A DNA stretch of 64,000 nucleotides from NCBI GenBank assembly GCA_020152595.1, contig JAIGNY010001179.1, positions 496,501-560,500 on the forward strand, read 5' to 3'. The number at the start of each line of letters is the position of its first letter. The first letter of the stretch is position 1. The notes under the pieces were generated by a model. The model was not told where the DNA came from. It ran no database searches and worked only from the letters and a program-made list of their open reading frames with translations. Positions 11,451 to 31,867 of the stretch are shown here, piece after piece. Source of the stretch: Chiridota heheva. Its lineage: Eukaryota > Echinodermata > Holothuroidea > Apodida > Chiridotidae. Both the position numbers and the translations under genes were made by a program.

Positions 11451-12049
11451 ACCGGGAAAAATCCTCAGGGAAAGAATTTCCCCGGGTACCTATTTCCCTC
11501 CCCCCCCTCTGCTTCCCCTGCTTCCTAGGCTTCTGGGAAGCAGGTTTTGTATAAGCGCAAATGGAACAATACTTGTCCTTCTGTCACGTAATTTTTAAGT
11601 AAATTCAGGGAGATTTATATTGTTATGAGAAGCATATGAACAGGTAAATGTGCGGTTCATAATAGACAATGGGAGAGACATATCAACCTTTTTTAAATTC
11701 TAATGAAAGAATAATGACAAAAAATTAAATAAAAGTATCCTTTGTAAGTAAAATTGTTCCTCCAATCATATACAAATTGGCATTGAGAATTTGCTAAAAA
11801 CAAACTACACAAGAAAGAAGATGGAAATTATAAAACACATATATGGTTTGCCTAATTGCAAAATACACCACATCTGCATGCAGTTTTTTCAAAGATATGA
11901 TTAAATTTCTTTTCGAAAATTATTTGAATTATGAATATTGCCCTACTATTAGATCCCTGGAGGTCACGGTGAACACGTATATTATTAAACAAAACAAGAG
12001 TACCCAGCTATCGGGAAAGTAGAACCCCGAGATCATTCAACCTGTTGTA
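11451..12049. other. No gene seen; upstream flank of the putative promoter
   Basis: AT-rich, non-coding, no repeat recognised apart from a C/T-rich run at 11495-11525. Confidence 0.45.
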
Positions 12050-12260
12050 TTTGCCGCGTGTGCATGTGACGTACGTGGTGCGAAAGCGCAGCAGCAGTGC
12101 TTTTTAGTAGCCTAGTCAGTTATAGTGCTCGACTTCAAGGTAGTCATTTTCGTGCGAAATATTGAATCGACACGAGCAAGCGTTCTTTCTCTCTCTTCTA
12201 AATCTTCGACTTCTTTTCTCTGCGTTTCCTTTGCAACGAATTCTCACCCTCTTTCCTGTT
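12050..12260 (+). promoter_or_regulatory. Putative promoter and 5' untranslated region
   Basis: A CpG-containing island in otherwise CpG-poor DNA. It has a CRE-like 'gtgacgtacgtgg' at 12067-12079 and a TCAGTT initiator-like word at 12116-12121. A pyrimidine-rich leader follows ('ttctttctctctcttct', 'ctttcctgtt'). No TATA box is evident. There is no ATG between about 12118 and the proposed start at 12261, which fits a clean leader. The transcription start is inferred only. Confidence 0.45.
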
Positions 12261-12268
12261 ATGGAAGG
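12261..12268 (+). CDS. PTBP: Putative first coding exon of a PTB-like RNA-binding protein
   Basis: ATG GAA GG followed at once by a consensus donor (gtaagt at 12269-12274). The start context has G at -3 and G at +4, and no ATG precedes it in the leader. The exon ends after two bases of a codon. Joined to the micro-exon at 31831-31867 it reads MEGLTATEINGSGTK. From memory, vertebrate polypyrimidine-tract-binding proteins begin M-D-G, with the first coding exon also ending after the GG of codon 3, and the small second exon ending in G-T-K. Those proteins are nuclear splicing regulators with four RRM domains. No RRM is visible here, so the family assignment rests on exon structure and a few residues. 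Confidence 0.5.
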
Positions 12269-12274
12269 GTAAGT

Positions 12275-13595
12275 TACCGATTTATTTTGCTTTGAAATGA
12301 TATCTTTCTCGCTGTCATGTCTTTTTGGAGGTTAGAATTATCAATGTTTGAAACTTTAGTCTTGTTCGTAACAAAGCTGTGTTGTAATCGCTTGCATAGG
12401 CTAGGTCATTCATGATTCAGTAACGTTAGGCCCAAGTAGATTTCATTGACATACATTATTGTAACCTTAGGCCTATGCTAGTAGACTCCCGCCGCCTAAC
12501 GTTAGGCTAAGTACCTTCGGACTGATGCCAGCCGTGTAATTGGTAGTAGCCTATGGCTGGCCGCCCGAGGGTACTACAAGTATAGGCCTAGGGCCTACTC
12601 TGTTGTGCTGTTATTGTGTTAAATAAAGTCTTGTGTTAAAACATAGGAAAATCTCAGTCTTAAGAATTTGTGAAAACGAACCCAGCCCACATTGCTTAAG
12701 TTAGGGGCCTAGGCCTATTCATGATGTTTGAATCCATCCTTATCTGCAAACAATTTTACGGTGATTTTAGTTACTTTTATCAAAGTATTTACTGGGCTAC
12801 TTTTCATTTCGTAAAAATCGTATGACGAGTTCTCCAAATTAGGTTAAAAAGTTCAAAACACCTCTTATCGGGCCTAGGCCTATAACATTTAACAGGGGTA
12901 GGCTTAATTAGTAATATATTTAGATTATTTGAGGAAAAAAAGAAGAAATTAATCCCTACTTAGTAAGTACAATTATATAATCTAAACATTTCTTGGTGTT
13001 ATATTTATTATATGAACCAAAACATGTCAGCGAAAAATCAAGCTGCAGTTTCATGGAACATCTTAAGCTTATTTGTGGACGTTTGAATAGTTGATCACAA
13101 ACGTGTGGTGACTAGTAAGAAAGATGGCGACCAAAACATAGAATCGGATAACTTTATCCCATCGTGGTGCTAAATAGGTAAAGATTTTGGAAAGGATTTT
13201 TTGGAAAAGTGTATTATTTAGACTAATTGGTCTTAAGTAAGTTATTTTTCAAACATCAATTTTCTACAACGTGTGAATTTAAAAAAAACCCATAGGAATT
13301 GTATACAATCTATAACAATCCACCTACAGCAATCGCAATGTCAACAATAATGAGGGATGTGTATAATAAGTAGGTCTACTGTGTGAAACTTACTAAAGAT
13401 TGTAAGAACATTTCACATATTTGATTTGTGCATAGAAACGTACTGTTATAAAAGACTAGTTTTATATAGTGGGAGAGAGATACACTGTATCCCACTTTGC
13501 TGTCCCAGAACAGTGCTTTTAATGCACTTGTCAATTGTGTGACGCACCCCACATCCCGGACAAGGTGAGTCATTGCACCAAAGTAGGTGGACAAC
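12275..13595. other. GGCCTA-rich intronic sequence, no gene
   Basis: Contains many AGGCCTA or TAGGCCT words (for example near 12472, 12585, 12710 and 12872) and 'taacgttaggc'. No element boundaries or coding potential recognised. Confidence 0.5.
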
Positions 13596-13765
13596 ATGTA
13601 CATTGACACACCCCTCAGTCACTTAGGTGACTGACAACTTTTTGTGAAATGACTTACCCCAAATTAATCACCTGTACAAAGTCAATGGATCTAAAGTAAA
13701 TTGACCCACCCCAGAGTCACTCTAGTGACTGACAATTTGGTACAATGACGCACAGATGAGTCACT
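13560..13765. repeat. Diverged ~98-bp tandem duplication with GTCACT palindromes and AP-1-like words
   Basis: Two diverged units begin 'attgacacaccc' at about 13602 and 'attgacccaccc' at about 13700. Each carries a palindrome: CAGTCACTTAGGTGACTG at 13616-13633 and AGTCACTCTAGTGACT at 13715-13730. Exact TGAGTCA words occur at 13566-13572 and 13757-13763. It lies 1.3 kb downstream of the putative start, so an intronic enhancer is possible but unproven. Confidence 0.55.
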
Positions 13766-14377
13766 ATTTCAAACGTCAATTACTCACATTTGACTGACAT
13801 TGCCGGGGTTAGTAGGTAGGGGTGAATCATACAAGTGCATTATGCAGGAATAGTGAATTTTCAAACATCACTGTTCCAGTGAAACAGTGTTCTTTCACAA
13901 GCATGTGGCATTAATGATCAATAACTTACTTTCTGCTCCAAAAAATATATAATTTTTATTAAGTAAATGTTTTTCCCACCTTGCCTGCAATTGTTATCAC
14001 AATGAATGAACATATGCAAGGCTGCTTGCACATGTACGACTGTATGCAACTGGATATTACATCATGTAAATAATTTTAATTACCGACATACAGTACATAT
14101 TTGCACATATTATTAACCAATAAAGTTGTTGTAAATTTCTCCATTTTTAATTGTGGAATTTGTCCTGTTATCAGCAAAATAGTTGGAGCATAAGAAATCT
14201 GATCTGGAACAGTATTATTCAAGAAAATTATGTTCCGTGGATTAGTGACAAAAAATTCAGTTTCTACTCATGAACAGTGCAACAAACATTTTGCAAGTGA
14301 GGCAGTTTTACCATGCCAGATTGCACTGGGAAATTTGGGAATGGGATAGGGCCTACTTACTAAGGAATAGTTGGCCT

Positions 14378-14427
14378 ACCTGTAAGTAGTTACAGGTCAA
14401 ATACCTGTAACTAGTGACAGGTCAAAT
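14378..14427. repeat. 25-bp tandem duplication
   Basis: Two 25-base units, 'acctgtaagtagttacaggt' plus 'caaat' and 'acctgtaactagtgacaggt' plus 'caaat', differ at a few bases. Each unit is itself nearly palindromic (CCTGTAAC...GTTACAGG). Confidence 0.85.
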
Positions 14428-14929
14428 GCTTATTGTACATATTACAGTTGTAGTAATTGTTTTTCTTTTGTTTTGACACACAAATTGCATTTAAGCCTAG
14501 GCCTACCTAGGCATATGATATTGATATTTCACATAAAGAAAAAATAAAATAATGGTAATGTTCTACCTATGACTACTGTACCTGTGCCTGTAACATTACT
14601 AACTAGGCTTTAATATGACTTAAAATAAAACATCTTTTGTATCTGGCAGCATTGGTTTCAACCTGTATTGAAGCTAAAGTAAGGCCTGTGTCAAAAAGAG
14701 AAATAAAAAAATGTATCTTTAGAGAAAGTCATGTACTTCCAGTGGAATTTGAACTTTCTTCATTTCATTATCATTAATTTAACCAAACTTGTTATTGCTG
14801 TATTTAAACCCAGCTTCAATTGTTTTGTACAAAATTAAATCAACATGATTTTTAGTTACTATTTTGGTTTTAGAAAATAAATACTTCTATAATTTTAGCT
14901 ATGTTCTCTTCTTGTTCTTTTTCTGCTAT

Positions 14930-15950
14930 TAGAACTGTGACCATTTACTGTATACATGCTAAACGTTCGCAAATGCACTAAATGTTTACTAATTATCGAA
15001 TTGCGAGTTTTTCATTGTCAAGTCTTGCCTTTGAAAATCATTCAAACCACACATATTCGACTGACAAAATTCCAATCAATGTCTTTTACAAATTGTAAAC
15101 CCGATTAGCAGAATTCTCTTTAAATGCAAGAATCACAAATGCGTAGTAATCACTTATGAATAGGGATATTTTGCACTTTGATTTTGCCAAAATCTGAGTA
15201 ACGTGTGATATGCACCGCGAATGTGCAGCAGTAAACAGTCTGACAGTGAAAGTAACAATAAAATAACATGCTTTGATCCCACTCAATCAAGACCCATTTT
15301 ACAAGCTGTTAAATTGACCACAATTTACACGATCAAAATACTTAAAATCGTAGCGATCAGTACATCTACATGTAAACATTACCTGATAAGTCAAATAAAT
15401 TTTGCAAGAAAGAAAAAAATAGCAAAATAAACAAACAAATACAGGTTTAATCAGAGCTGAAATTCTGTATGCTTCGCAAACATTGTGGCCATTTTGCCAG
15501 AGGATATAATATGAACAGTACTTCTGGGTGATGGTGTAGTTTTCTAATTTTTTACGGCGAGGTATCACACTATGTAAGATTTTCACTGAAAGCCCGAGTT
15601 AGTACGTTACGGGATATTACGCAAAAGTTACACGATATTGAGATTAAATGACATTTAAGAGAACTTTTCTGTTCTTTCTAAACCAAATTTCCTTGCACAT
15701 TTTTCATAAAAATAATGTTTCATAGTGTAAAAATAATTTGGAAAGCAAAAATTCAGTATTTATTTGGGCAATGGGGTCAATATTTTTGCCACACTGGTTG
15801 TGCGATTGTTTTACTTGGCATTGTAAATTGGACCAACTTTGGTGTACTTCTGAAAATTACGGTACTAAACGCTAAGTACGCTAAGTATAAATGCTAAACG
15901 CTCGTATTTACTGTATGTGTGTACACGTTTAGTATACGTTCACAGCTCTA
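14930..15950. mobile_element. hAT-type non-autonomous element, family 1, copy 1
   Basis: 1021 bp. Ends are 'tagaactgtgacc' and 'cgttcacagctcta', an inverted repeat of TAGAGCTGTGAACG type. The flanks are tctgctat (14922-14929) and tctgctac (15951-15958), a 7/8 target duplication of the 8-base length typical of hAT. The interior ('ttttcattgtcaagtcttgc', 'tgtaaacccgattagc', 'gaatgtgcagcagtaaac') is colinear with the element at 45701-46777. No transposase is encoded. Confidence 0.88.
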
Positions 15951-15958
15951 TCTGCTAC

Positions 15959-17110
15959 AGCTTGCCTGAACCTGCACCATATATTTTGCATACTAATATT
16001 TTTGCTGTCTGAAATACAGTTGATGATAATGCCCTCCTTGATAAATGTGCTCCCTCAAGAAATGGAGCATCCAGGGTAATGTAAACAAACTGTTTGTTGC
16101 TTTCCTCAAGGGTTGCGCATCAAAAAGTGAGCATAGGATACGTTAATAGAATTCTATTTTTGGTGTCGAGTAACATGGTACAGTGTAGGTCCGAATCTAA
16201 ACTACTTAAGGCACAAATTTGTGATTTTTCTCTTAATGAAAACAAGATATTTACTATATTGCCTATATCAGCATTTACACTAGGGTTAAAATTTGGGGGA
16301 TTTTTCCCCTTGTGAATGTTTTTGGGGGTTGGGGGGTTGGAGGGGGATTTTGAAAAAAGGTGGAAACTTGAAATGATAAAATCTCCCAAGATACAAAGTT
16401 TTCTTTGACGTCATTACGTATTGCTAAGCAATTCCTTCACTCTGCAATGTTTGTTGCTTAAATCTGAAAAGTAACCATCATTGGTAAAAACAGGTTTACA
16501 GTTAATACATGTATCATGCAAATGAGAAAGAAAAGTTAAATAAATGCACAAATCTAAAGGTTTATGTAAGTACTGCTTGTGTGTCTTTTTATAGTAGATC
16601 GATAAGAATAGATTAACATTTAAAAAAAAACACTAAAAAAAAAGATAAACTAGACTAATTGTTCTTTAATCAGATGCAGCAGAGGCATTCCTCCCTTGTT
16701 GCCTTCTTTTTATTGTGTCTTTTTATTGTTGTAACTGATAGACTTGTTATTTAGTAAAGTTCAACTTAGCTGCAGTACATGTTTTATGTAAGTCACGTCA
16801 TTCCTATCATTGTATACCATACATCACATGCACTACACAATATAAAATTTCTACACGTAGCAGATGGCATGATCGTGTTACAATTACGTGTTGTATTTCA
16901 TCACAATCATTGCATATTTCGTAACACCAATGGAAGAGACTTGTTCAGGTGGGTTTCAAACTTCAGGTACATTTCAGCCGAAAATTTACCCATTTGTGAA
17001 GGAAAATATTAAAAGAAAATTTGATGGCTACTTATAAAGAAACATAACATGTATTTGTTTTAGTAGAATTTAGGGTGTAAAATCAATAGAAAAAAGTTAC
17101 CAAAACAGTG
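15959..17110. other. No gene seen
   Basis: Non-coding AT-rich DNA. A G-rich patch at 16315-16350 ('ttgggggttggggggttgg') could fold as a G-quadruplex. The two opposing open frames at 16094-16389 overlap it and are unlike known proteins. Confidence 0.45.
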
Positions 17111-17172
17111 TAGAGCTGTGAACGTTTAGGGATTTTTGTAAACGTGTACATGCCAAAAATTCTGAGGTCCCA
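17111..17172 (+). mobile_element. Single end of hAT family 1
   Basis: 'tagagctgtgaacgtttagg' and 'gtaaacgtgtacatgcc' match the terminal 45 bases of the 45701-46777 element. No matching second end follows; the sequence runs into a LINE tail, so this is a truncated remnant. Confidence 0.65.
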
Positions 17173-17174
17173 AA

Positions 17175-17380
17175 TTATTATCCCTAACATTTACGTACCC
17201 CTTTCTTTTTACCAAAAGTGTTTTTTCTTCTTCTTCTGCTTTTACCTTTTATTTCCCTTACAAACCTTTCATCTCCTCACTATCCTAACTCTTACACCAT
17301 TATTTATAACACCCTCTTGGCACATTTGATGCTGACTGTCTGGTGCCGTTAAACATCAACAAACCAACCAAACCCAAATT
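17175..17380 (+). mobile_element. I-group LINE 3' untranslated tail
   Basis: C/T-rich sequence ending 'ccctcttggcacatttgatg' ... 'gtgccgttaaacatcaacaa' and an (ACCA/AACC)-like tail. The same tail, 'ccctcttggcacatttgact' and 'accgttaaacatcaacaaac', ends the coding copy at 24993-26312. Only the untranslated part survives. Confidence 0.75.
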
Positions 17381-17744
17381 ACTGCATAATTTACTCTAAC
17401 TAGGTATCTAAGTTTTTAAATGCTGTAGGATGGTCAAAATTGAACCCGATTTTGATTTTTGATGGAACTTATTGCTGTTTGCATGGTTTTTAGTACTGTA
17501 TATTTAACACCATTTCAGCTGATATTGTTGCTACCTTAAAACTGTAACCGAGAAATGACAAGAGTATGTTTTGATTAGATCTTTAAGTTGTTGAATTTAA
17601 CAGCTTTGATCTGTATCCATACATAATTACTTCCTGAAATCTACCTAGCAAGAGGTGACATCACTGCCATACAGTCTACTAAAAAAGCATTTTGAGTCCT
17701 TCAGGCTATATGCTGTGAGTACTGTACAGGCGATGGCAAACCTC

Positions 17745-18405
17745 AGGGGACTCCCAAATTGATAACAAACTCCATGTCATCCAGCCCACCATTCCGATCA
17801 ACCCACCATCCACAACCTCTCTCGTGTCAACAACATTTACATTACCCATCTTAGAATAGGTCACACCCACCTCACTCACTCCCACCTCCTTATTGGCTCC
17901 CCCAACCCCTTTGCAACAATTGCCATTGCACCCTCACAGTCCATCACGTTCTCCTTCCCCACAGCTCCCCACAGCTTCCCTCGCTCCCTACAGCTTCCCT
18001 CGCTCCCCACAGCTTCTCTCGCTCCCTACAGCTTCCCTCGCTCCCCACAGCTTCCCTTGCTCCCCACAGCTTCCCACGCTCCCCACAACTTCCTTCGCTG
18101 CCTACAAACTCAATAGCCAAGCTCTTCCAGAAAAACCCCCCGGATAAAATTATCTCCATTCTTCGTCTTGCTTCCCTCTACAACCATATTTAGTCCTTCT
18201 CTCCCACCCCCTCTGCTTTTTTTTTTCTTCACCCATGCACCTCTCCTGATCCCAGCTTTCTGGCTTTTAGTTCTCGTGTTTCTTTCAACCTCCCCCTGTT
18301 GTCTTTCCTTCCTACCTCTGGAATGATTCTAACCTCTCAGGCACAATTTAACCTTCGCTGTCATGGTGCCGTTAAAGCCCTCATCAAACAAACAAACAGG
18401 CGCTT
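17745..18405 (+). pseudogene. I-group LINE 3' end, C-terminal remnant plus tail
   Basis: Around 17820-17900 the frame reads RVNNIYITHLRIGHTHLTHS with HLLIGSPNP, the conserved stretch before the C-terminal zinc-knuckle of RNase-H-bearing I-group LINEs. After a few residues it dissolves into a 19-bp minisatellite. The end, 'ggtgccgttaaagccctcat' with an (AAAC)n tail near 18400, is the LINE 3' terminus. Same orientation as the other three copies in this intron. Confidence 0.75.
17965..18110. repeat. 19-bp minisatellite inside the LINE C-terminal region
   Basis: Seven to eight copies of 'ctcccyacagcttccctcg' with scattered substitutions. It begins exactly where the LINE coding text for the region after the zinc-knuckle should be. 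The opposing open frames across it are artefacts. Confidence 0.9.
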
Positions 18406-19561
18406 GTGAATCACAAAGTTAAATAATGGAAATATTCAGTATAGCTCCACCATAGGTTAAATATTATCAACATAAATCTTGAATTTTTTATTTTTTGAAA
18501 AGTTTTATTAGTGATGGTAAAGAACCTACCCAAACACATCATTCATAAAAGTATCATTTGATTAATGGAATAGGATATTAAAGTAATTTCTCCACCATTT
18601 TGTTTCTCTCTTTCATATAAGATAATCATGCTTGACCACTTGACCATTGAACTAATCCTCAGTGGTCAAATTGTTTTTGTGGGTAGTTTGTTGTTTCCTT
18701 CTCCCTTCCGTCAAAATTTTATTCAAGAACAAAACAACAAACCTCCTACCGTACCAGTAATATTATATATGTACAGTACCATGCATCGACATAGTACTGC
18801 TATGCATACTATTACTTCCTTCTTTATGAGGGAAGACCCTGAATATTACATTGTGATGGATGCTTGAATGACTTTCAAAAGGCTTTTATCGGCTGTTTAC
18901 AGATGAAGAACTCCAAATTTGTCATTTTATTCTGTCCTGGTTGAGCAGCCTTTCTTTGTATTAATGTCAACCCCTAGGGTATAAACTTGTCTTGTTCCGT
19001 CATTGATTGCTCATCTCAGCATTCCCATGTCACGAAAAAGAGCGAGTGTAGGATACTACTTTTCTTGTTGTACTGTACATATTCATGTATCGCATGCCTT
19101 ACTGTGCAATGTTTCATGTATCGCGTGCCTTACTGTGCAATGTATTTTGTCATTTCGTCAAAGCATTTCAGAGCTACTATTTGAGCTCCCAATTCATGAG
19201 GAAAGTTGTTGAATTTTAGCTGTCTCATTCTTGTTTAAACTTTTCAAAAAGGTCTTTGTGGTCTATTGACAGGTACTGTTTAGGCAACATTTAAGCGTTA
19301 ATCTATAATTCAAAGTGCATTGTCGCAGATTACTCATAGAAGCTATGGCACTGGATGAATATCATGGATTAACCATGGTCAGCTGATGCCTTTTAACCAA
19401 CGAAATTGTAGTATTCTTACCACATGTAAATGAATACATTAAAACTTTGCACACAAATTTGTACATGTGCTATATCATGACCTGGATATTAAAAGGCTGT
19501 GCAATAAATACAAGATTTGAAGCCAATTTGGGTAGGATATGTTTCGTGTCTTTAGTTAAAA
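18406..19561. other. No gene seen; one short duplication
   Basis: Non-coding. A 31-bp tandem duplication ('ttcatgtatcgcatgcctta' and on) occupies 19082-19143 with one difference. Confidence 0.5.
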
Positions 19562-20090
19562 GCAGAGTTGGAATTAAAAATTTCCCAAGGTTCTAGATAA
19601 AGATGTTGAAAATCTTCCCACGAACAATTGTGACAGAAATTATACTATTGTAGTGAATACATCTTTATCAGGGCACCAAATTAGCATTGGTTTTATTACT
19701 AGTCCATCAGTCTTTCTCACCTTACAATTCACTAGCCCAACTGAACTTTCCACAAGCCTGTTTCTTCATGTCTCACATAAACATACTGAATAAATCTAAT
19801 GATAGGACTAGCCAGATGGGCTTGAATTATTGCAATTTTGCTAACCAGAACGTAGAATCTACTAGTCCTGGACTAGCGGGCTTTGTCCTAATTTTGAGTC
19901 CTGATATTTTTATACTTCCCTCTTTTGCTGTTTAATGTACTTTTAATCGCACAATTTCATAGGGGAGGAATGTTTTTGAGCAAATATTTACCACATTATA
20001 CTGTTGTTTACTCAAGGAGAAAAAAAAGAAGAAGAAAATCATTTTTGTAATTTTTTTTGTTCCTCAATTTCCCCATTTCCCCGCTCGCCA
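19562..20090. repeat. Dispersed repeat, family D, copy 1 (interrupted)
   Basis: Colinear with 55891-56150: 'gcagagttggaattaaaaat', 'aatcttcccacgaacaattg', 'tgacagaaattatac', 'cttccctcttttgctg' and 'tttttgagcaaatatttacc'. The match is split by an inserted hAT-like element at 19669-19903. Class unknown; no coding. Confidence 0.7.
19669..19903. mobile_element. Small hAT-like MITE with an empty-site paralogue
   Basis: 235 bp from 'cagggcaccaaattagc' to a right end whose reverse complement is 'caggactcaaaattagg'. Flanks are atctttat (19661-19668) and atattttt (19904-19911), a diverged 8-base duplication. The uninterrupted paralogue has one 'atctttat' (55993-56000) followed directly by 'atgtttccctcttttgc', the empty site. 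No coding capacity. Confidence 0.8.
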
Positions 20091-20661
20091 GAACTAGATT
20101 TTTTTCCAGCTCTGGTTAAGAGATGATATTTTGAAATAATTTAAATCATGTTGCCCCCACCTGTCTGTTGATCTTGAAATTGATCCGAGCAATAGAAGTT
20201 CACAAAGAAATTTTTGCATGACATGTGGAAATATATTCCACTGGCATTTATTAACAGCGTGTACAGAATATTCTGAAACCATACTATACAACATAAACCA
20301 CTTGTTTTGCAGTCAGTCCCTATTAATCTTTGGTACCCTCAGTTTTAGGGACAAGGCTCGCATTTCATTGTCTCCCTATCTTAAGTTACATTTACAAAGA
20401 ATGTCATTAGAGAAAAAGCCATTTATTGGTATCTTGGATTACCTGAGACGTTATGTGGTTCCACCCAATTCGTATGAAATGCTGGTACATGCAGTGCTGT
20501 GAAGACACATGCCCATGTGCAGTATTCAACTCGGTCTCCGTATTTCCTTTTATTTTAAAGGTCTATGGACGGACATGTAGCCATTTCTATTTGGATAGAA
20601 TAGTTTGCTGCTATGATGGTTTTTGATATGTTTTAAAGCCTCTGCATATGTGTAATTACCT

Positions 20662-21921
20662 TAAAGGATTAGTTCAGTGGTCAAGCAAGTTAATCTTATT
20701 TGAAAGAGGACATAAAGAGAATCAACTTCTTTTTACTATTTTCGTGGAACTGGTATACAGTTTTTTTGTCAATGAAAACGGGCCAACTTTACCTTTGAAT
20801 GCTAGGTCCTGCTTGTTTTGAATTTCCTACTGAAAGTGCATCATTTTTGCACTCTTTTTTTTTAAAGACCTGGACATTCAGATTCAATAAATATTTATAG
20901 AAAATGTCCTCTGCTACTATAAATTGGACGAATGGGCTCAGAAATCTACATACACTGTTTGTACTTGTGCTGAAGCTTACAGTACAGGAAGTCTGACGTT
21001 GAACGGACAAATTAGTGGGAAATATCTTTTAGTCTTAAGGATGAAATCTTCTAGTTTTGATGATAAAATCTACTTTCAGGTGTCAATTAAGGGCTTTTTC
21101 ACATAAAATTGGGGATGCGGTATTCCTTTTAAGGAATTTAGTAGCGATGTTTAAGGATTTAATAGCGATGTTTAAGGATTTTAAATCACATTGATTGCAA
21201 TTGCTCAACTATCACAAATCATGAAAATTAACTTATATTATTGTGCAATGTCCATAGCAAATTACAAACTTTTTGTGGCTATACAGTGAGGAAAGGTGCA
21301 TGTTTGGTTGTCACGTTAACTTCATTATTAGTTTATTTATAGTGCAATACTGGTGGAAAACATCGATATGACCCTTCAACTCAATATTGACCATATTGAT
21401 ATGGGTCAATATCGAATAATATCGAAATATTGATATATTGCCCAAGCTTAATCACAACTAGTCTGATTTCAGTCGTTTCAACACAAATGATACCAAACTT
21501 TAAACTCAAATATCTCCCTAACTGAATAATATTTTTTGAATGCTTTCTCTTTTGAAAACCATTTTTGTTTCTTTTGAGATGATTTTGCTTGACCTCTGAA
21601 CAAATCCTTTTAGGCCCTTTATTGAATGCTTATTATTTTATGTTGTATGCAAATTTATTACATTTCCAATTATTTTTAGGCCACAAAATCGCAGGACAAA
21701 ATATGATAGAATAGGCCTACATAAAGACTGAGGAATCTGAGGATGTGATGTCACATGTCACAACTAGTCTGATGTCAGTCATTTCAAAACAAATGATACT
21801 AAACTTTACAAATTTTTCCTTAACAGAATAAGATTTTGTAATGCTTTTTGCACTATTTTGTTTCTTTTGAAATCCTCTTTCATTTATGATGGACTTGCTT
21901 GACCCCTGAACTAATCCTTTA
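20662..21921. mobile_element. Long-TIR MITE, family E, rearranged copy
   Basis: Left end 'taaaggattagttcagtggt' and 'caagcaagttaatctt'; right end 'gacttgcttgacccctgaac' and 'taatccttta'. It has two successive right halves (about 21447-21613 and 21745-21921), each with 'caactagtctgatntcagtc' and 'tttgtttcttttga', so one was duplicated or two copies merged. Shorter relatives: 60255-60817, 35286-35515 (left half) and 51693-51763 (right end). Confidence 0.7.
21130..21182. repeat. Short tandem duplication
   Basis: 'agtagcgatgtttaaggatt' is followed by 'aatagcgatgtttaaggatt', about 21 bases per unit. Confidence 0.8.
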
Positions 21922-23130
21922 AGGAAAAAAGGATATACAATTTCTTTCTTTTTCATAGTCTTAGAATATTCACTTTTGTTTGTCTTTTTTAGCTGTTGGA
22001 TTGTTTTAAAAATGAATGAAAAGGTTTAACTTATATGTAAAAGTTACTGTAGTACATAAAAATGATCATTATTGCTTTAAAATTGTTCATGTACTGCTTT
22101 AACTGTTTTTGTTACAGGTCCTAAAATACTAACATATTGTATGGAAAAACCTTACACCATCACCTTCCTGCTTGGGGAAAAGGTTTTATATACCCCAATT
22201 CGATTCTTCCTATAAACTAGCCACAAAGGTTGGTAGGCACAATAGGAAGGCTTTCGACCTCTGTACCCTACTACTCAATAAACCAGACTGTTTGGCTGTT
22301 TGCAGTTATTCAATTATTCTTTGCCCTCGGGCAAGGCATATTTCAGATCTGAATTGCTAAATTACCCAGAATTACACATGGAAAATAAGATTTGGAGGGT
22401 TTACGGAAGACTGATTAAATTGGATTTGTTCGTAGTGGTGTAGAAATTTCTTTGGAGAGGTTCGCCACCTGAAAGAAGAGTTTTTGCGCTTAGTTGTGGT
22501 TGTGAATCAACTGAGCATTGTGGTGTAAAATATGTTAGGTTTGGTTTTACTTGATTTTAGTATGAAATGGAATTATAATTCATGTTTTTTCATGAAATGA
22601 ATGAAGTATTGCAGCCTTCCTGTTGAATTGGCCATCTAATGTAACATTAGAGATGAAAGTAGAGGAATAGGTTTGATGAAATTAGTTGAAAGTTTGTGTT
22701 GTGAAATAACTGGTTAAGGGAATTACATGTCATTGTCTCTGGTATATTAACAGTATAGGAGCACAACACAGTTCAGTTCTTCAAACTACCTTTTCACCCT
22801 ACTCCATACCCAACATGGAAAATATTGTCATGAAGCTGCATGGGCAGCCTCTAAAATGTGGGGCTCCATTGCTTTAACTGGCTTTAGATATGAACATCCA
22901 AATGTGTGTGGGGAGGGGAGAGGGGGTCCAAGGTCTGTCACAATGTTAATTTGGAAAATAGGGGGTGTGCTGATGTTGAACACTCACATTGTTCAAAACA
23001 ATGTTTAGTATGCATGTGACTGGTAGAGTTTAATATTCATAAATATTATGAGGCTCCATTCAGGCAAAGTGTGTTTGATTATTCTAGCAACCCCAGAATA
23101 ACATGCCTACGCTTTTGGAGTGGTTCTCCT
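21922..23130. other. No gene seen
   Basis: Non-coding DNA with no recognised family. A short G-rich patch lies at 22900-22930. Confidence 0.45.
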
Positions 23131-23402
23131 TTAAAGGAAAGTTATTATCCCATAAATGCATTCAGAAGTAAACGCTGCTGTGCTAGTAACGTCACTTTCG
23201 GTTTTCAAATTTTCCTATTTATGACATGAAATCTGTGATGTTATCGATTACACATCTGCGGACCGAACATAGGGGCCTACATGTGTTATCGACAACATCA
23301 TACATTTCTCTCGATTAATAAGAAAAATTGAAAACTGCAAGTGATGTTACCATGGTGGCGTTCACTTCTGAATTAATTGATGGCATGATACCTTTCCTTT
23401 AA
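23131..23402. mobile_element. Foldback MITE with TTAA edges
   Basis: 272 bp, almost entirely an imperfect palindrome. The left arm 'ttaaaggaaagttattatcc' ... 'cagaagtaaacgctgc' ... 'gttatcgattacacat' pairs with the right arm (reverse complement 'ttaaaggaaaggtatcatgc' ... 'cagaagtgaacgccac' ... 'gttgtcgataacacat'). TTAA lies at both edges (23131-23134 and 23399-23402). No coding. Confidence 0.85.
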
Positions 23403-23494
23403 GTGTTGATTCAACATCAATATATACTTTATCATAAACTGATACCTTTCCTTTAAGTGTTGATTCAACATCAATATATACTTTATCATAAACT
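23387..23494. repeat. Perfect 54-bp tandem duplication
   Basis: 'gatacctttcctttaagtgt' to 'atactttatcataaact' occurs at 23387-23440 and again, identical, at 23441-23494. The unit includes the last 16 bases of the foldback MITE plus its flank, so it arose after the insertion and recently. Confidence 0.97.
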
Positions 23495-24992
23495 AGCTGT
23501 AGTAAGATATAGTCATTATTCTGTTAAACTCTTTAAAAGCAAAACTTCATTTTAGGAGAAAGTGAACCCTTGCATGGCCTTATCTAAAACCAAATTGTGG
23601 AAGCTGAAAAAAAGATTTTTTTTTATTTTTTAAAAGAAACAAAATCGTATGTCTTTCACTGATAATTAAGCTTTTATTGATAACATTGCAAATTTGCTGT
23701 TCAAGTTCGTTTATAATTTGCCAATGTCTGAGCTGTATTTATCTTGTCTGAAATTTTCAAGTAGTTTTTTTAGCCCATTATTAGAATGTAATAGACAAAA
23801 TGAAGAGCACTCGTAGGAGTCATTATTGAATTATTCTATTCACGAAAGCTCGCTCGTTTGATTTTTTGGCCACCGTAAGCTTCTGCACTAACTAAGAATT
23901 AATAAAAAAGATGCAGCCCAGAGCTATTTTTGATAATCGAAAAAAGTAACCTTATTCCCGCGTTCAATTACTCTAGAATTTCATTTGATTGATCTTAGGC
24001 GGGTGACAGGAAACACTTTGAGGGGCAGCCTGTCGGATTTTTTTTATTCATTCTGCGGAGAAATGATGACATTAATCTTGAGCATACCGTAGTTTAAACT
24101 ATACAGTTATGGCATTATCAGAATGGGTTACGGAACAATCTGAAGTGTCAAGCTTATAATGTATATGCATTATTCAGGAGGAGCTATTCTGCTCCCTTGA
24201 GGCATCTAAAGCTATCACTTTATCTGCATGAATGAAAACAGTATTTCACTTTTTAATTATTCAGATTAATATGCAACTTATTCCCAGAAAGGTTTTATTC
24301 TCCAGTACATGTGTTTTGTCTGTACTCTAGCATGGGGTTACTTGGTGTTATTAATTAGATATCATTTACATAAAAGTGAATATTGCACATATATATTCAA
24401 ATTATTCAAATGAACTACAGGCTGCTGGCCTTTGTCACAAAGTACAACACATTAATATAGTGCACAGTGGTAGGTTAACACAAATATCATACACAAAATT
24501 GAAGCAAAAACATGAAAATGATAACAAAAACAATTTCTCAATATGGTTTTCACAATGTTTCTTAGTCGGGCATAGAACTCTGTTTGTCTACTTTAATACC
24601 ATGCAAAATAAATAAAGAAACAGAAATACAGAATTAATAAGGTTTTCAGAGTCTGATGACAAAAACGTTGGATATACTGTATATAGATATTGTTGGATAT
24701 ATGGTGTTGTAAAAGTACATTATGTGCAGTATTTTACACTCAAATATTTTCCATCTTAAGCTTGAAATATTCAAGAAATTGTTATGTGAAACATTAATAA
24801 AAACAGAGGAATAATCTTTCCTGTGATGTGTACAGGTTTGTTAAGACTTTGTTTTATTCACCCTTTCCTCGTACACACTTGTTAGTAAAATGTGAACATA
24901 ATACTATCGTTTAATGTGTATGCTGCAAACAGCTGCACTAATAGGGGCACTGTGTGCTTTGTGCTATGGAGACTTACTTTCAGAAGTATTAT
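23495..24992. other. No gene seen
   Basis: AT-rich non-coding DNA. The 79-residue open frame at 24376-24615 has no features I recognise. Confidence 0.45.
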
Positions 24993-25720
24993 TTGTTTTA
25001 TTAGCCTCCATCTACTGTGCTAAAGCAAAGGCTATCCTCCTAGCTCTAAACTTTGCAGAACTCTCCTTCTGCCTCTGCTTCGTCTTCTTCTCTGACTCAA
25101 AATCAGTTCTTACTGGCATCCTCACCATGCACTGGTCTAATCCATTCTTCTTACAAATCCTAACAACTCCATGCTCTCTCTTCCTTAGGGAAGAAAATAT
25201 TTTTTTCTGGATCCACAGCCACTTCGGCATCCCCGGCAATAAGAGGGCCGACAGAGCCACCAACATTGCTCTGTTGAACCACATTTCACCTATCCATATT
25301 CCGCATTCTGACTTCCGCTTCACCATTTCTAGCTACTGTATGTACATGCACCTCGGGGAGACCTGGCAGGACTTCTGGAATCTTGAGACCAGTAACAAAC
25401 TTCACACTCTCAATCCCAAAGTAGGGACCAACCCTCCTTTGCACAGTCGCAATCGTAGGGAGGACGTTGTTGTCACCCGCATCTGCCTCAGTCACTCCTT
25501 TCTCACCCACTCCTTCCTCCTTTCTGGCTCTCCTACACTTGTCTGCCCTACTTGCAACACTGATCTTTCGATTAATCATATCCTCCTAACCTGTCTCTTA
25601 ATCTGGAACTCCAGATTTCTTCTCTCCTACTCCACTTCCATTTCTAATCTCTTCAAGAACAACCCCTCCTCCGACATCATCACCTTCCTCTGCAATTGTA
25701 ACTTATTCCACCTGATCTAA
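24993..25720 (+). pseudogene. I-group LINE, RNase H and C-terminal zinc-knuckle
   Basis: An uninterrupted frame of about 240 codons. It starts inside an RNase H domain (AKAKAILLALNFAE, FFSDSKSVLTGI, WIHSHFGIPGNKRADRA) and continues to TRICLSHSFLTHS and the C-X2-C-X7-H-X4-C knuckle (CPTCNTDLSINHILLTC near 25549-25599), ending LCNCNLFHLI and a stop at 25718-25720. These domains follow the reverse transcriptase in I-group non-LTR elements. The RT and endonuclease are missing (5' truncated), and the first acidic RNase H position appears as Lys (AKAKA where AEAKA is usual). Lack of stops suggests a fairly young copy. The upstream part of the frame (24914-24990) is unrelated flank. Confidence 0.88.
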
Positions 25721-25742
25721 CCCTTACCCACCAAACCCCTAG

Positions 25743-26162
25743 CTTTGCTGTTTTACAGGGGCAGCCCGCCCTGCCTCTCTGTGGGCCAGCCCTGCCCCCT
25801 GGGGATTCGTGGTCCGTCCTGCCCCCCTGGGGTCCGCCCTGCCCTTAATGAGAATTTGAAGAAAAAAAAAAAAAGATTTATTTTTATTTTATAAACTTAA
25901 TAATCTTAAATAACCTCATAAATGAATACCTTATAGGATACAGAACACAGAATGATAGCATAGTAAGCAATTGTCCTGTTTGGCTCATGAATGGTCCTTA
26001 TCAATCAAAATAGTTTCATTCTGAGGTATGATTATAGCTAAAATCCCAGACCTTCTCCATGATATTTAGTCTTAAGAGGGCCCAGGACGCCATGCCGAAA
26101 AGACGCAGTGCTTCGCGCACGCATTATTGTACCCTTCAACAAGTCCAGCACCGTGCCAGGGG
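25743..26162 (+). mobile_element. Dispersed repeat F inserted in the LINE 3' region
   Basis: First a GC-rich block of 'gccctgcccccctggggtcc'-like repeats (25755-25848) and an A-run, then at about 25917-26160 a segment shared with 51465-51690: 'ggatacagaacacag', 'gtaagcaattgtcctgtttg', 'gaggtatgattatagctaaa', 'cagtgcttcgcgcacgcatt' and 'aacaagtccagcacc'. LINE 3' text resumes after it. A third, inverted piece is at 49205-49333. Class unknown. Confidence 0.65.
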
Positions 26163-26312
26163 TCTGTCCACACTCCCTTTTTATCCTACCATTCTATTCC
26201 TCCCCTTTTCTTACCTCTTTTATTATTCATAGTGTCCTTACTGTCCTCTTGCACCTTAGGATTTTTAATACCCTCTTGGCACATTTGACTGTTAAACCGT
26301 TAAACATCAACA
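26163..26312 (+). mobile_element. 3' tail of the LINE at 24993
   Basis: 'ctttttatcctaccattcta' to 'ccctcttggcacatttgact' and 'accgttaaacatcaacaaac' followed by an AAC-rich tail. It matches the tail at 17175-17380 and completes the LINE interrupted by repeat F. Confidence 0.75.
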
Positions 26313-27756
26313 AACAACAACAATTAGTGTTATCCCCCCTCCCACCCCCTGTCGAAAGAATGGCTGAGGGTTTAAAGAAATGTGTTTTGCTTTCATTCAT
26401 AGTTTTAATTATATTTTCTTCCTTGAAATTCACTTGAAAGTTTTTAGAAATATAATTGGGATTTTGTTTATAGTCTGAAAATTAATTTTCAAACTTTTGT
26501 ATGGTTCAGTACCTGTGATAAGATCTCTTCATGAGATACAAGCATACAAGCTTTGTTCTCCCAGTTTAGCAGATGGAAAGTGATTTACAATATCTACTGT
26601 TAATGGTCTGCAGTGATTTATAACTTTGTGGGTAGGCTATTGATCATTTGCGACTTCTATTATACACGGTTTCAAATGAAGTACGCTACACATTACTGTA
26701 ACATTTAAAGGTGGACGTTAAATGGTGAAATATATCTATCTTATAAGACAAAACACGAGGGGAATGATATGATTTCAGAGAAAATATTGTACTTAAAGTT
26801 AAGGATATACTGAATTTTTAAGCTTTTGAAATTTTAAAGACAAATGGTCAAGTATGTTCATTTTACGTGTCAATGAAAGAACTCAATTTGGTAAAGAAGA
26901 TATTTTTGAATGTTAAGAAAAAAAAAATTGTATTAAAGAGATACAGTATGTCGCTTAAATTACGGGCAGGTTTTAAACTAGAAATAACGTAGCATCTTTT
27001 GTTTCACAGTTCTCAAAAATCTTTGAATTGTCCTTTCGAAACTTGGGGTTTAAAACAATGGGTAGGCAAGCAGATGAGCTGAAGATTTATCCAGTAATGT
27101 TGAGTTACTTACCATCTGAAGAAATTTTGAATAGATAGGAAAGTTTTGAAGATTTGAGAAACAGGTCTTGAGATGCTTGTGACAAATATATGAGAAGATG
27201 GATCAGATCATCAATAGAATTGTCTGAATTTTTTTGTACATTGTTAGAAGTGCTTTTGATACTGATAGCATTTTCACAAGCATAAAACAAGCTGAACATA
27301 TATACCCACACAGATTTATATGAGAAAGTTTTAAATTACAGAAGCCGGATTGTCGCCTTTTGGGTACCTCAAGTTGGAAAGTTCTTACGGGTGTTAAGGA
27401 ATAGATATTGTATGTATAGTTCTATTGCAAAGGTTCATGATCTGAATATATTATCTGAATTGTTTGCTCTTGGGAGAGGTATTCTGAATTGAACACTGTC
27501 TGATCGAAAATGTACATCTGCAGAGGTAATTCACTGGAGTGGTCATGTAATATTGTATCTGGTCGATAAGAATATGACTCCAGTCTCCTGGTTGTTGATA
27601 GAAAATTAAATATAAGATTTCATTGGGATTGACAAGTTTTGTATATTTGGCTGGGTGGTGGTTGAAAGAATGTAAGATGCAAACACAAATTTGACAAATT
27701 TATTACTCTTCAAGTTCAAGTACAGCACTTTTGATCAATTGTTTTTTTGAGCAGAT
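26313..27756. other. No gene seen
   Basis: AT-rich non-coding DNA with no recognised element. The 68-residue minus-strand open frame at 27105-27311 is unlike known proteins. Confidence 0.45.
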
Positions 27757-28866
27757 TGTTTCCACCCTTGGCGTCCCTCGCCCTCTTTCCTCCAACTGTA
27801 ACACAACAGTCCACCCCCACAATCCACCCCAACAATTCACCCCAACAATCCACCCCAACAATCCACCCCAACAATCCACCCCAACAGTCCACCCCAACAA
27901 TCCACCCCAACAATCCACCCCAACAATCCACCCCAACAATCCACCCCAACAGTCCACCCCAACAGTCCACCCCAACAATCCACCCCAACAATCCACCCCA
28001 ACAGTCCACCCCAACAATCCACCCCAACAGTCCACCCCAACAATCCACCCCAACAATCCACCCCAACAATCCACCCCAACAATCCACCCCAACAGTCCAC
28101 CCCAACAATCCACCCCAACAATCCACCCCAACAATCCACCCCAACAATCCACCCCAACAATCCACCCCAACAATCCACCCCAACAGTCCACCCCAACAGT
28201 CCACCCCAGCAGTCCACCCCAACAATCCACCCCAACAGTCCACCCCAACAGTCCACCCCAACAGTCCACCCCAACAGTCCACCCCAACAATCCACCCCAA
28301 CAATCCACCCCAACAATCCACCCCAACAATCCACCCCAACAATCCACCCCAACAGTCCACCCCAACAATCCACCCCAACAATCCACCCCAACAGTCCACC
28401 CCAACAATCCACCCCAACAATCCACCCCAACAATCCACCCCAACAATCCACCCCAACAGTCCACCCCAACAGTCCACCCCAGCAGTCCACCCCAACAGTT
28501 CACCCCAACAGTCCACCCCAACAGTCCACCCCAACAGTCCACCCCAACAGTCCACCCCAACAGTCCACCCCAACAGTCCACCCCAACAGTCCACCCCAAC
28601 AATCCACCCCAACAATCCACCCCAACAATCCACCCCAACAGTCCACCCCAACAGTCCACCCCAACAATCCACCTCAACAATTCACCCCAAACTCATGTTT
28701 TACCTCCAACACATGTCAATTGCATGTGACACATGACAACCCCACCACTCCCCCTCCCCCTTTAGCCACAGCTTCTTCAACTACCATGCATATCTTTACT
28801 ATTTCAACCAATTGTGGCCCAATTTGACCAATGCTGTGAAGGTGCCATTTAACCCCACTAACCAAC
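27757..28866 (+). pseudogene. I-group LINE 3' end swollen by a minisatellite
   Basis: It begins with a frame reading LGVPRPLSSNCNTTVHP, the degraded counterpart of the SGSPTLVCPTCNTDLSINH segment of the copy at 24993. It then runs straight into the 13-bp array (27807-28691), and ends with 'gctgtgaaggtgccatttaa' and 'ccccactaaccaacc', the counterpart of the 'ggtgccgttaaa' LINE terminus. Only the last few residues and the tail remain. Confidence 0.65.
27807..28691. repeat. 13-bp minisatellite, about 68 units
   Basis: Unit 'ccaccccaacaat' or 'ccaccccaacagt', with two common variants (A or G) and rare ones (cagcag, ttcacc). Because 13 is not a multiple of three and neither strand of the unit contains a stop, frames of 217-332 codons open on both strands (13-residue repeats such as NNPPQQSTPTIHP and WGGLLGWIVGVDC). 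None is a gene. Confidence 0.98.
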
Positions 28867-28912
28867 CATTAATTCCATTGCAACTGTCGCGATACTTCTT
28901 TTAACTGGCGCA

Positions 28913-28970
28913 TTTAATCAAGAAGGTACCACTTAAGACTTTCTAAAGTGGTACCTCCTTTTGATTTAAT
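28913..28970. other. Hairpin with two paired blocks
   Basis: 'tttaatcaa' pairs with 'ttgatttaa', and 'aggtaccactt' with 'aagtggtacct', around a loop of about ten bases with a small asymmetric bulge. It is 58 nt long, directly after the LINE tail. It could be a tiny foldback element or a pre-miRNA-like hairpin; nothing here separates these. Confidence 0.6.
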
Positions 28971-30276
28971 GATGAACGCATCAGATTAGCCTACGTTGTC
29001 TACGCAAGCTAGTGGAAGGAGTATTGATTTTTGCAGTCGGAGATCATTCCAGTCACCACCACTTCCTCTTTCTTCCATTAACTTCAAGAATCTTCTCAGA
29101 GAAGATTGAGATCTTTGGGTGGAAAATGACAAAAATAGGATTGGAAAAAAATACAGAAACCTTGTTGTACTGTACAGTGTGTTTGATATGCATGTGAGCT
29201 CCAGTGCATGTACATGGATTTTATCAATACGGTTGTTTCATTGTAATATTTCAAGGGTCAAAATTTACTTTTTTTGCCACTGTTTCTCAAATAATACTAC
29301 TGGATAAGATTTCACTGTTCTAACTTTTTTTGCCGATATAAGGACAAATTTCTTTCTTCAAAGTTGGCTTAATTTGCAACTACTTGATTGCTTAATATGT
29401 GCCAATATGTATGTCAGTATTTGCATGTACAGTACATGGTGTAGCGTCCAGTTGCATACAGTCGTACATGTTCAAGCAGCCTTGCACATGTACATGCATT
29501 CATGATAGATTGCGCTGACACTTCAATCAAGGTGGGATATGATTTTTCTTATCCAGGACCTGATTTTATATCATATTTGAAACTGGAAGTACTGGGAATT
29601 GCATCTCTTTCTGCTGAATGCCATATTTATTTGTAGATAAACAGTCACTTTCCTTGTAAACAATATTTGTATACATACTGAAATAAGGAGTCAGCACAAT
29701 GTGTGTTGTTACATAGTCTGGGCAATCAATTGTCAATGTAAATCTTAAAAAACGTCTTTCAATTATTGAAGCTTTTCTGTTAGTTATAGAATGTGTAGCT
29801 TTCGGGCCATTATCTGTTACATTATATGTGTGACCAGCCAGAGAATGGCCCAAATGGATCCCTGGGATCCACTGGGGCCATTCTCTGTTACGTTATGTGT
29901 GTAACCAGCCAGAGAATGACCCTTTAGTAGAATTAATTGAATATGTTTACAGTTCAATATTCTGAAAGCCTTATTGTATTTACAGTACAGTTTTTGATAA
30001 TTTTTCCTGATGTTTAACCCTTGTGGGAATTGAATTGAGTGAAAATGCGGATCCATTCCCCAGGCATGCTCTGATTTAGAGTTATATTTGGGTGAACTTG
30101 AAGGGTAGAACTTACTTAGCTGGAAAAAATAAACAGTTCTCTTATTTGTAAATGCAGGAAAATTGGGAAATCGAGGGAAGGAAAAAAAAAAACTTTGTGG
30201 GAAGAGTTTTGACACCTTTATTCAGAACCATGAGAAGTTGTATAATTAATTCCAGCTCAGAGAACTCATTTCCAGA
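28971..30276. other. No gene seen; an internal near-repeat
   Basis: Non-coding. A diverged direct repeat, 'cattatctgttacattatat' with 'gtgtgaccagccagagaatg' at about 29810-29848 and 'cattctctgttacgttatgt' with 'gtgtaaccagccagagaatg' at about 29879-29918, flanks 'atggatccctgggatccact'. Confidence 0.5.
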
Positions 30277-30885
30277 TAGTGCTGTCACGACATGGCTCTA
30301 TTACGTATCAATTATCCTAGAGAAAAATATCACAATATATTGTATATCGTGATACTTTTCAAGAAAACTGACTCACGACACAAATTGTTAATATCACTAA
30401 AGTTATATGATTATGGAGTTACAATTTACTCCATGATATGATGAACGCAAGAAGAAATGATTTGCAGATCTAGCAGACGACACAATCATGTGACTATTAC
30501 GTTCGTCACGCATCCGCACGTGTTTGGTAATTCAGCCAACGTGACCGTGAATCATTGAAGTGAGAGCCTGAGTGGCACATTCTGAACCAATTTTTTGTTC
30601 TCTTGCCAACTTACATCTGCGCGTGCCGGTGTGTGGTGACAGAGCGCGATTTTTAATTGGCTGTTTTTATGTTTCATGATTATTTCGCACGTTTGTAATG
30701 GCGTAAACTTGACTTTTAGATTTAGTATCATAACGTTAGAATTGTAATGTACGAAGTAATCTGGCCTAGTTGCACGAACATTTCTTAGTTGAATATTAGT
30801 TTTTGGTATCGCGATATGTCGCGAGAGGCATATTTCATGTCGTGGGACGAGTTATCGCGATAATCGATATGTAATGACAGCACTA
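30277..30885. mobile_element. hAT-like MITE, family 2 (TAGTGCTGTCA ends)
   Basis: 609 bp with perfect 11-base ends TAGTGCTGTCA / TGACAGCACTA and inner text rich in 'atatcgtgata'/'tatcgcgata'. I see no clear 8-base target duplication, so the superfamily is tentative. Relatives: 49730-50028 and the right border of the 18-bp minisatellite at 54253-55055. Confidence 0.7.
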
Positions 30886-31637
30886 GACATGGTCCAACCG
30901 ATGGTTACCATGATTCAAAGCTTTCTGTAATTGTCAGATACCAAAAATATAAAGGAGTCATGGCTCAAAATTTGACAGAATCGACCCTTTAGGGTAACAG
31001 TTGTTTACATGTCAAGGTTTGTTGCTGTTTAGGGTTTACACTTGAAAGTGTTAAAATGTGTTTGATGGTTAGTAAATGAAATACAGTATGTACACTTACA
31101 AAACATTTACCAAAAGACATGTATCCTGTACTTGCAGAGAATAATAATTGTACTTTTTTTGAACTGGATTTCAATCACAAATTAAGGAGCAAAAATTATG
31201 TTGATAACCAAATACAGATGTTCAGAGACAATGTCTTTAATCATTTTTTCATAAGTGATTTTTTTACTTTATACCTACTGTAAGGTTAAGGTGGATTAAA
31301 TGAAGTTTGGGTAAGAAGTTATTCATACAATTTCGCATCATTGACCATGTTCAACGGATTGGACGAGCGGCCATTTATCGTGTAAGAGGATAAGCCAAAG
31401 GTGTTAAACCTACATCAATTTTTTTTTTACAGTATTGACTGTCTATGAAGCAGTGTATTTGCGTGTGTGTATTTCATAATTGGTCTTTAAAAAGATAAGG
31501 TGACATTTTGCACAACATATATTCCTTTCAAATAAATCGATGCAAATTTATATGCCATTGAGGTCGTGCTAATGACATTAAAAAGTAGAAAGAGATTGAT
31601 AAATTTATCGATTCTTTTGATGTATCATATTGCTATT
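30886..31637. other. No gene seen
   Basis: Non-coding DNA upstream of the micro-exon, with no recognised repeat. Confidence 0.45.
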
Positions 31638-31685
31638 AAAAAGCCCCTTTCATGAAGCTCACAAGCATGAAAGGGAGAGGCTTTT
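31638..31685. other. Hairpin 145 bases upstream of the micro-exon
   Basis: 'aaaagcc' and 'cctttcatg' pair with 'catgaaagg' and 'ggctttt' around the loop 'aagctcacaag', with a 4-base bulge on the right arm. If transcribed as part of intron 1 it would fold shortly before the branch-point and polypyrimidine region of exon 2. Confidence 0.6.
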
Positions 31686-31830
31686 ACGAAAGTGTCAGCG
31701 CAAGCTTGTGCATTAACCGTATGATCAATATTCTGAGTGAAATCTTTTCTTCCTTTTCACAATTAGCACTTCCTTATTAAGTTACACATTCTATTCATAC
31801 TTCTTTCCATTTTTTGTTCTCCCTATTCAG

Positions 31831-31867
31831 ACTTACTGCGACAGAAATTAATGGATCAGGAACAAAG
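31831..31867 (+). CDS. PTBP: Putative coding micro-exon 2 of the PTB-like gene (37 nt)
   Basis: Preceded by a long pyrimidine tract and acceptor ('ccattttttgttctccctattcag', of which the last 17 bases are strongest) and followed by AAAG|gtacag. One base completes the Gly codon begun in exon 1, then L-T-A-T-E-I-N-G-S-G-T-K, ending on a codon boundary. As recalled, the vertebrate PTBP1 equivalent is 31 nt with the same phases and the same G-T-K end; this one is two codons longer. The next exon would be expected to begin R-G-S-D-E; I could not find it in the remaining 32 kb. An alternative reading from an internal ATG (31851) is possible but has a poor start context. Confidence 0.52.

Follow-up and report, generated by a model that had tools for sequence, protein, structure and literature searches.

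Introduction

Polypyrimidine tract-binding protein (PTB), a splicing regulator that binds RNA, moves back and forth between the nucleus and the cytoplasm via overlapping N-terminal import and export signals, and in human PTBP1 either loss of the first AUG or a change of R14 lowers the nuclear share of the protein (PMC12618068). In vertebrate PTBP3, the first AUG lies in exon 1, exon 2 measures 34 nt, and K14R15 form part of the nuclear localization signal (NLS); the contexts given in Table 1 of that article spell AUG GAU GGU G, or M-D-G (PMC4477659). Exon 2 of PTBP3 is skipped under PTB control (PMC4477659, PMC1940037). Here we describe a window of 64,000 nt (positions 496501-560500, plus strand, of contig C1177 in a 1.10-Gb assembly of 3744 contigs) that very probably contains the first two coding exons of a PTB gene from what appears to be an invertebrate.

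Exons of 34 nt recur in this family, as this is the length of PTB exon 11, nPTB exon 10, and ROD1 exon 2 (PMC1940037). The AG exclusion zone measures 381 nt in human PTB, where the branch point at -351 has been tested, and 438 nt in nPTB (PMC1431707). Skipping of the human PTB exon leads to nonsense-mediated decay (PMC6153489). Among titles from one open library, none named an invertebrate PTB gene (sea urchin, Strongylocentrotus, and echinoderm included), which is not proof that none is published, and none of the papers returned there on PTB autoregulation, exon 11, or distant branch points mentioned an invertebrate or sea urchin. In the extract of PMC4379411, PTB occurs only in the reference list.

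Results

We estimate a probability of about 94% that positions 12261-12268 and 31831-31867 of the window are coding exons 1 and 2 of an animal PTB gene running on the plus strand from about 12.1 kb. The coding part of exon 1 (12261-12268; ATGGAAGG) reads ATG GAA GG, ends in phase 2, and is directly followed by a GTAAGT donor, as an earlier note on this DNA had reported. Upstream, a TAG at 12141 terminates its frame, and G occupies positions -3 and +4. The ATG is the first after an ATG-free stretch of 194 nt (the preceding one is at 12064), and a gap this large precedes only 1.6% of plus-strand ATGs in the window. Intron 1 (12269-31830, GTAAGT...CAG) spans 19,562 nt and leads to exon 2 (31831-31867), whose 37 nt (ACTTAC...ACAAAG, flanked by CAG and GTACAG) finish G3, encode LTATEINGSGTK, and end in phase 0, joining in phase to an exon 3 at contig position 580419. 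Together, the two exons make 45 nt and translate to MEGLTATEINGSGTK, the first 15 residues. Intron 2 totals 52,051 nt and begins at 31868; its 3' end lies beyond the window, which ends at 64000. The window therefore consists mostly of the first two introns, as had been proposed: all of intron 1 plus the initial 32 kb of intron 2.

The evidence that carries this assignment comes from outside the window. We added 220 kb of downstream and 40 kb of upstream DNA, and numbered the 284 kb of window plus downstream DNA by carrying the window numbering past its end, such that 83919 corresponds to contig position 580419. Human PTBP1, PTBP2, and PTBP3 sequences used for comparison were working copies rather than database entries. 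Searching the 284 kb by tblastn with this PTBP1 returned ten matches with E ≤ 0.12, all on the plus strand and in protein order, extending from the first RNA recognition motif (RRM1; 124244) to the C-terminus (196998). Five matches with E of 2.4 to 9.4 were judged to be chance and dropped; a weak match at 182849 (E 2.4) was retained because it is an in-phase RRM3 exon.

Exon 3 (contig 580419-580532, plus strand, phase 0 to 0) starts at 83919, 52 kb past exon 2, and reads RGSEDMLYQT...DAKK, with the sequence AG/AGGGGTTCAGAGGAC...AAAAAG/GTAACC, located at 83919 as AG/RGSEDMLYQTPTNGSPATNVLSSITGDEMSLLASDAKK/GTAACC. Its start is the sole plus-strand AG in the 284 kb followed by at least five of the six residues of the template R/K-G-STAN-DE-DE-LMIV, and on the minus strand two AGs reach five. 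The earlier note had forecast an exon 3 beyond the window near R-G-S-D-E and then RRM1; we found AG/RGSEDM in phase 0, and the next exon (VKLDKVAPSKVVHIRNL...LMLKGKNQ) encodes the first half of RRM1. The order downstream on the same strand is exon 3, the first RRM1 half, RRM2, RRM3, RRM4, and a stop codon. Eleven further exons (158896 to 197013) join in frame to encode 403 residues that end in LRVSFSKATISPGS and the stop codon, which lies 133 kb past the window end and gives a coding span of 184,753 bp. In total, 15 exons were found with 13 observed junctions, all GT-AG and in frame, and at least one exon is missing. Some borders were picked by phase, notably the GTTTGT donor at 165957, where the linker exon ends. 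The 5' introns are long (19.6, 52.1, and 40.2 kb), and ten copies of TAGGCCTA are present in introns, a feature that may point to an echinoderm. With an in-phase exon 3, RRM exons, and a C-terminus downstream on the same contig and strand, the claim that the window holds the 5' end of a PTB gene, probably of an invertebrate, is supported.

Family membership is evident from the C-terminal 403-residue model, which is identical to human PTBP1 at 229 of 381 aligned residues (60%) and scores 455.9 bits against the NCBIfam model TIGR01649 (hnRNP-L/PTB/hephaestus; cut-off 287.4). Its best matches in PDB are PTBP2 (E 3.2e-85) and PTBP1 (E 3.5e-85). The gene as such is an ordinary member of the PTB family.

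Joining the first four exons yields MEGLTATEINGSGTKRGSEDMLYQTPTNGSPATNVLSSITGDEMSLLASDAKKVKLDKVAPSKVVHIRNLSDDASEAEVVNLGVPFGHVTNLLMLKGKNQ, a 100-residue N-terminal model that shares with human PTBP1, PTBP2, and PTBP3 the initial MxG, K-R-G-S at the exon junction, and KKxK before RRM1. Residues 49-100 of this model match PTBP1 in PDB (E 2.7e-13). A two-part NLS is predicted: K15-R16 spans the boundary of exons 2 and 3, and KKVK follows at 52-55, where the KK at 52-53 ends exon 3 and opens the second half. We infer that the exons are spliced as drawn and that this signal is functional. Exons 1 and 2 would then encode residues 1-15 of PTB; K15, the last residue of exon 2, and R16 from exon 3 would form the first half of the NLS, and the second half would start with KK 52-53. 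By analogy with vertebrate PTB, this N-terminus would direct both the entry into and the exit from the nucleus of a splicing repressor that binds RNA. Skipping of exon 2 was computed to shift the frame and reach a stop at codon 42, just within exon 4.

Several observations weigh against assigning the two window segments to this gene. Under approximate splice matrices, donor 1 scored 6.35 bits, a value equalled or exceeded by 10 of 3570 plus-strand GTs (donor 1 included), and the exon 2 acceptor scored 6.44 bits, with 23 of 3306 AGs as high. The exon 2 donor (AAG/GTACAG) is weak at 0.38 bits, with 280 of the 3570 GTs as high. Hence, the earlier description of a 37-nt segment with a strong acceptor and a strong donor stood for the acceptor and for continuation of the frame but failed for the donor. 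By splice score, 31831-31867 ranked 12th among 21 open, frame-compatible second-exon candidates in the window, and we rejected the notion that splice signals single out exon 2, given that 11 other candidates score higher. The exon 3 acceptor is also weak (1.2 bits). Neither tblastn, an exon search, nor a motif scan recovered an exon for the rest of RRM1, and the interval concerned includes a run of 5000 Ns. Residues 1-48 of the N-terminal model had no PTB match in PDB, where the chain best matching human PTBP1 begins at PTBP1 residue 41. The N-terminal model alone reached 46.2 bits with TIGR01649, which is below the cut-off; the match starts no earlier than residue 61, and the profile itself begins at RRM1. 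Finally, exons 1 and 2 share little with vertebrate N-termini beyond MxG and GTK.

How often might such a pair arise by chance? We defined a PTB-shaped pair as M-D/E-G in 8 nt ending in phase 2, followed by 9-13 codons that end in G-x-K and phase 0. The window contains one such pair on its plus strand and none on its minus strand. In 64-kb order-3 Markov sequences, simulated as one strand each, pairs occurred in 2 of 4000 when the splice cut-offs were loose and in 0 of 4000 when they were set slightly under the scores of the real pair; a smaller simulation gave 0 of 600 under both sets of cut-offs. Since the template was fixed after the candidate was seen, these figures are a guide only and the downstream exons decide. 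As such a guide, they place the PTB-like phases and residues of the pair, rather than its splice strength, beyond chance. The window does offer several unrelated short candidates of like splice quality, which favors a reading in which the two segments are part of another gene, or of no gene, with PTB starting elsewhere. Against this, a PTB gene follows immediately downstream in the same orientation, its exon 3 is in phase, and the 284 kb contain no second plus-strand exon start of the RGS type. We regard such a reading as extremely improbable.

The sequence around exon 1 resembles a promoter followed by a leader. A possible initiator, TCAGTT, was matched by pattern at 12116-12121 (plus strand), and transcription probably starts near 12118. 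The pattern scan gave further initiator-like matches at 12033 and 12144 and no TATA[AT]A in 11901-12262. The putative 5' untranslated region (UTR; 12118-12260, plus strand) is ATG-free and pyrimidine-rich. Overlapping 300-bp intervals at 11951, 12001, and 12051 hold 19, 18, and 17 CpGs (mean 5.0), counts topped by only 1, 2, and 4 of 1274 intervals, respectively. A cluster of UCUU/CUCU/UUCU motifs at 12161-12260 (plus strand), a possible PTB-binding site, reaches 16 motifs per 90 nt, which is the plus-strand maximum of the window and the fourth highest distinct peak in the 284 kb.

A second CpG-rich patch precedes exon 2 at 30401-30900 and includes the highest single interval (21 CpGs per 300 bp). 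It may be a second promoter or an unrelated element. Were it a promoter, the main transcript of the downstream PTB gene could begin with another first exon, leaving the window segments as a minor alternative 5' end or a product of chance. This patch (about 30.4-30.9 kb), the weakness of the donor after exon 2, and the presence in 30300-31500 of five donors that score more than 2 bits (the best with 5.1 bits at 30628) are compatible with such an arrangement. However, the exon 2 frame ends in K where exon 3 supplies R-G-S, in the required phase; exon 1 lies at a CpG peak and has a good start context after a long leader that contains no ATG; and the exon pair has a low chance rate. We therefore consider another main first exon unlikely, and retain 12261-12268 and 31831-31867 as exons 1 and 2 of the PTB gene.

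Farther downstream, the gene appears to possess the autoregulatory exon of its vertebrate counterparts. A 34-nt RRM3 exon (LITPQDLFTLFG) lies at contig 679346-679379 on the plus strand, 118.8 kb past the window end. If this exon were skipped, codon 9 of the following exon would be a stop, 66 nt ahead of that exon's end. The AG exclusion zone of the 34-nt exon measures 143 nt and contains a single YTNAY, at -137, after which comes a long CU tract. Upstream, PTB motifs reach 18 per 90 nt, the second-highest peak in the 284 kb; downstream there is no motif cluster, with at most one motif per 90 nt. Human PTB binds the introns on both sides of its exon, according to the extract of PMC6153489, whereas here the cluster is upstream only.

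We asked how unusual this configuration is, using a motif set and thresholds that were chosen after the exons were seen. A zone of at least 143 nt, together with a motif density of 12 or more per 90 nt in the 250 nt upstream, was found at 3 of 15,001 plus-strand AGs in the 284 kb and at 0 of 15,226 minus-strand AGs. The three are the acceptors of the 34-nt exon and of exon 3 (zone 152 nt), and an AG at 133943 outside all exons of the gene model. Among 14 acceptors, upstream motif maxima included 8 for exon 2, 12 for exon 3, and 18 for the 34-nt exon. Zone lengths are exact for these three exons and off by one base for four RRM4 exons. A 328-nt zone before the exon at 191549 was set aside, as it lies in a tandem repeat.

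Exon 3 is frame-neutral and combines its weak acceptor and long zone with a CU tract. Its skipping was computed to remove residues 16-53 in frame, and with them most of the NLS, so the skipped form would be expected to be more cytoplasmic. The CU tract may be a self-binding point through which skipping would yield more cytoplasmic PTB. We also considered exon 2 as a regulated exon of the PTBP3 type and rejected it: its zone is 47 nt, against 168 nt for PTBP3 (ROD1) exon 2 in the extract of PMC1940037, and at most 8 motifs per 90 nt occur within 250 nt upstream. This motif density is not special, with at least 7 motifs at 17 of the 74 acceptors scoring at least 5 bits on both window strands. 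Given that exon 2 has no extended AG exclusion zone, PTBP3-type regulation is not claimed.

These features suggest a loop in which PTB would bind upstream of the 34-nt RRM3 exon with its distant branch point, causing the exon to be skipped and the mRNA to be destroyed. The CU-rich 5' UTR in the window could be an additional self-binding point. We judge the odds to be about even that a PTBP1-type autoregulation loop is already present here, possibly with self-binding at the 5' UTR and exon 3 as well. If an invertebrate PTB gene has the loop, it would be older than the PTBP1/2/3 duplications.

Other features of the region were recorded separately. Intron 1 contains a 272-residue open frame (IHSHFGIPGNKRADRATN) at 24902-25720 with no Pfam match; its wording is RNase H-like, and it resembles a decayed retrotransposon. 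Also in the window, a tandem array at 27804-28690 consists of about 68 copies of a 13-bp CAACAATCCACCC unit and is open in several frames. Upstream of the gene, open frames at contig 467918-470771 and 491761-495509 resemble, by eye, proteins of mobile elements, reverse transcriptase among them. No Rfam family and no tRNA was detected in scans of the window. Pfam gave three weak matches, none above cut-off, on 10 of the 34 listed window open reading frames, and a PDB search with a hybrid query returned only bacterial PII proteins (E 0.49 or worse). A genome search with PF00076, in which 150 of 258 candidates were scored, had 123 matches and none on this contig; it missed the RRMs of this very gene and is therefore uninformative on paralogues.

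Discussion

Raw sequence sufficed to recognise the N-terminus of a PTB protein, two exons encoding 15 residues, over a distance of 19.6 kb, and exon 3 was then located as forecast, 20 kb outside the window. This places the tiny exons 1 and 2, along with the K/R junction that splits the NLS, in an apparent invertebrate. The 34-nt exon, with its layout of a distant branch point, makes it testable whether PTB autoregulation by splicing-linked decay predates the vertebrate paralogues.

In common with PTBP1, PTBP2, and PTBP3, the gene has a tiny coding exon 1 and a small exon 2. Exon 2 is 31 nt in PTBP1 and PTBP2. It is 34 nt in PTBP3 and 37 nt here, and exons of 8 nt and 37 nt ending in phases 2 and then 0 fit the PTB pattern of the vertebrate genes. 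Also shared are the R-G-S start of exon 3 after K, the KKxK before RRM1, the 34-nt exon in RRM3, and the C-terminus LRVSFSKxTI. The gene differs in reading MEG rather than MDG and RGSED rather than RGSDE, and in its longer exon 2, its long 5' introns, and the weakness of both the donor of exon 2 and the acceptor of exon 3. hnRNP L and LL are covered by the same NCBIfam model, but their PDB matches (E 2.6e-20 or weaker) are far weaker than those of PTBP2 and PTBP1 (E about 3e-85), placing the gene closer to PTB than to hnRNP L. With PTBP1 exon 11 and PTBP2 exon 10, it shares a 34-nt RRM3 exon, a premature stop on skipping, and an extended AG exclusion zone; the zone here is shorter, at 143 nt compared with 381 nt in human PTB and 438 nt in nPTB, and its branch point and PTB binding are predicted.

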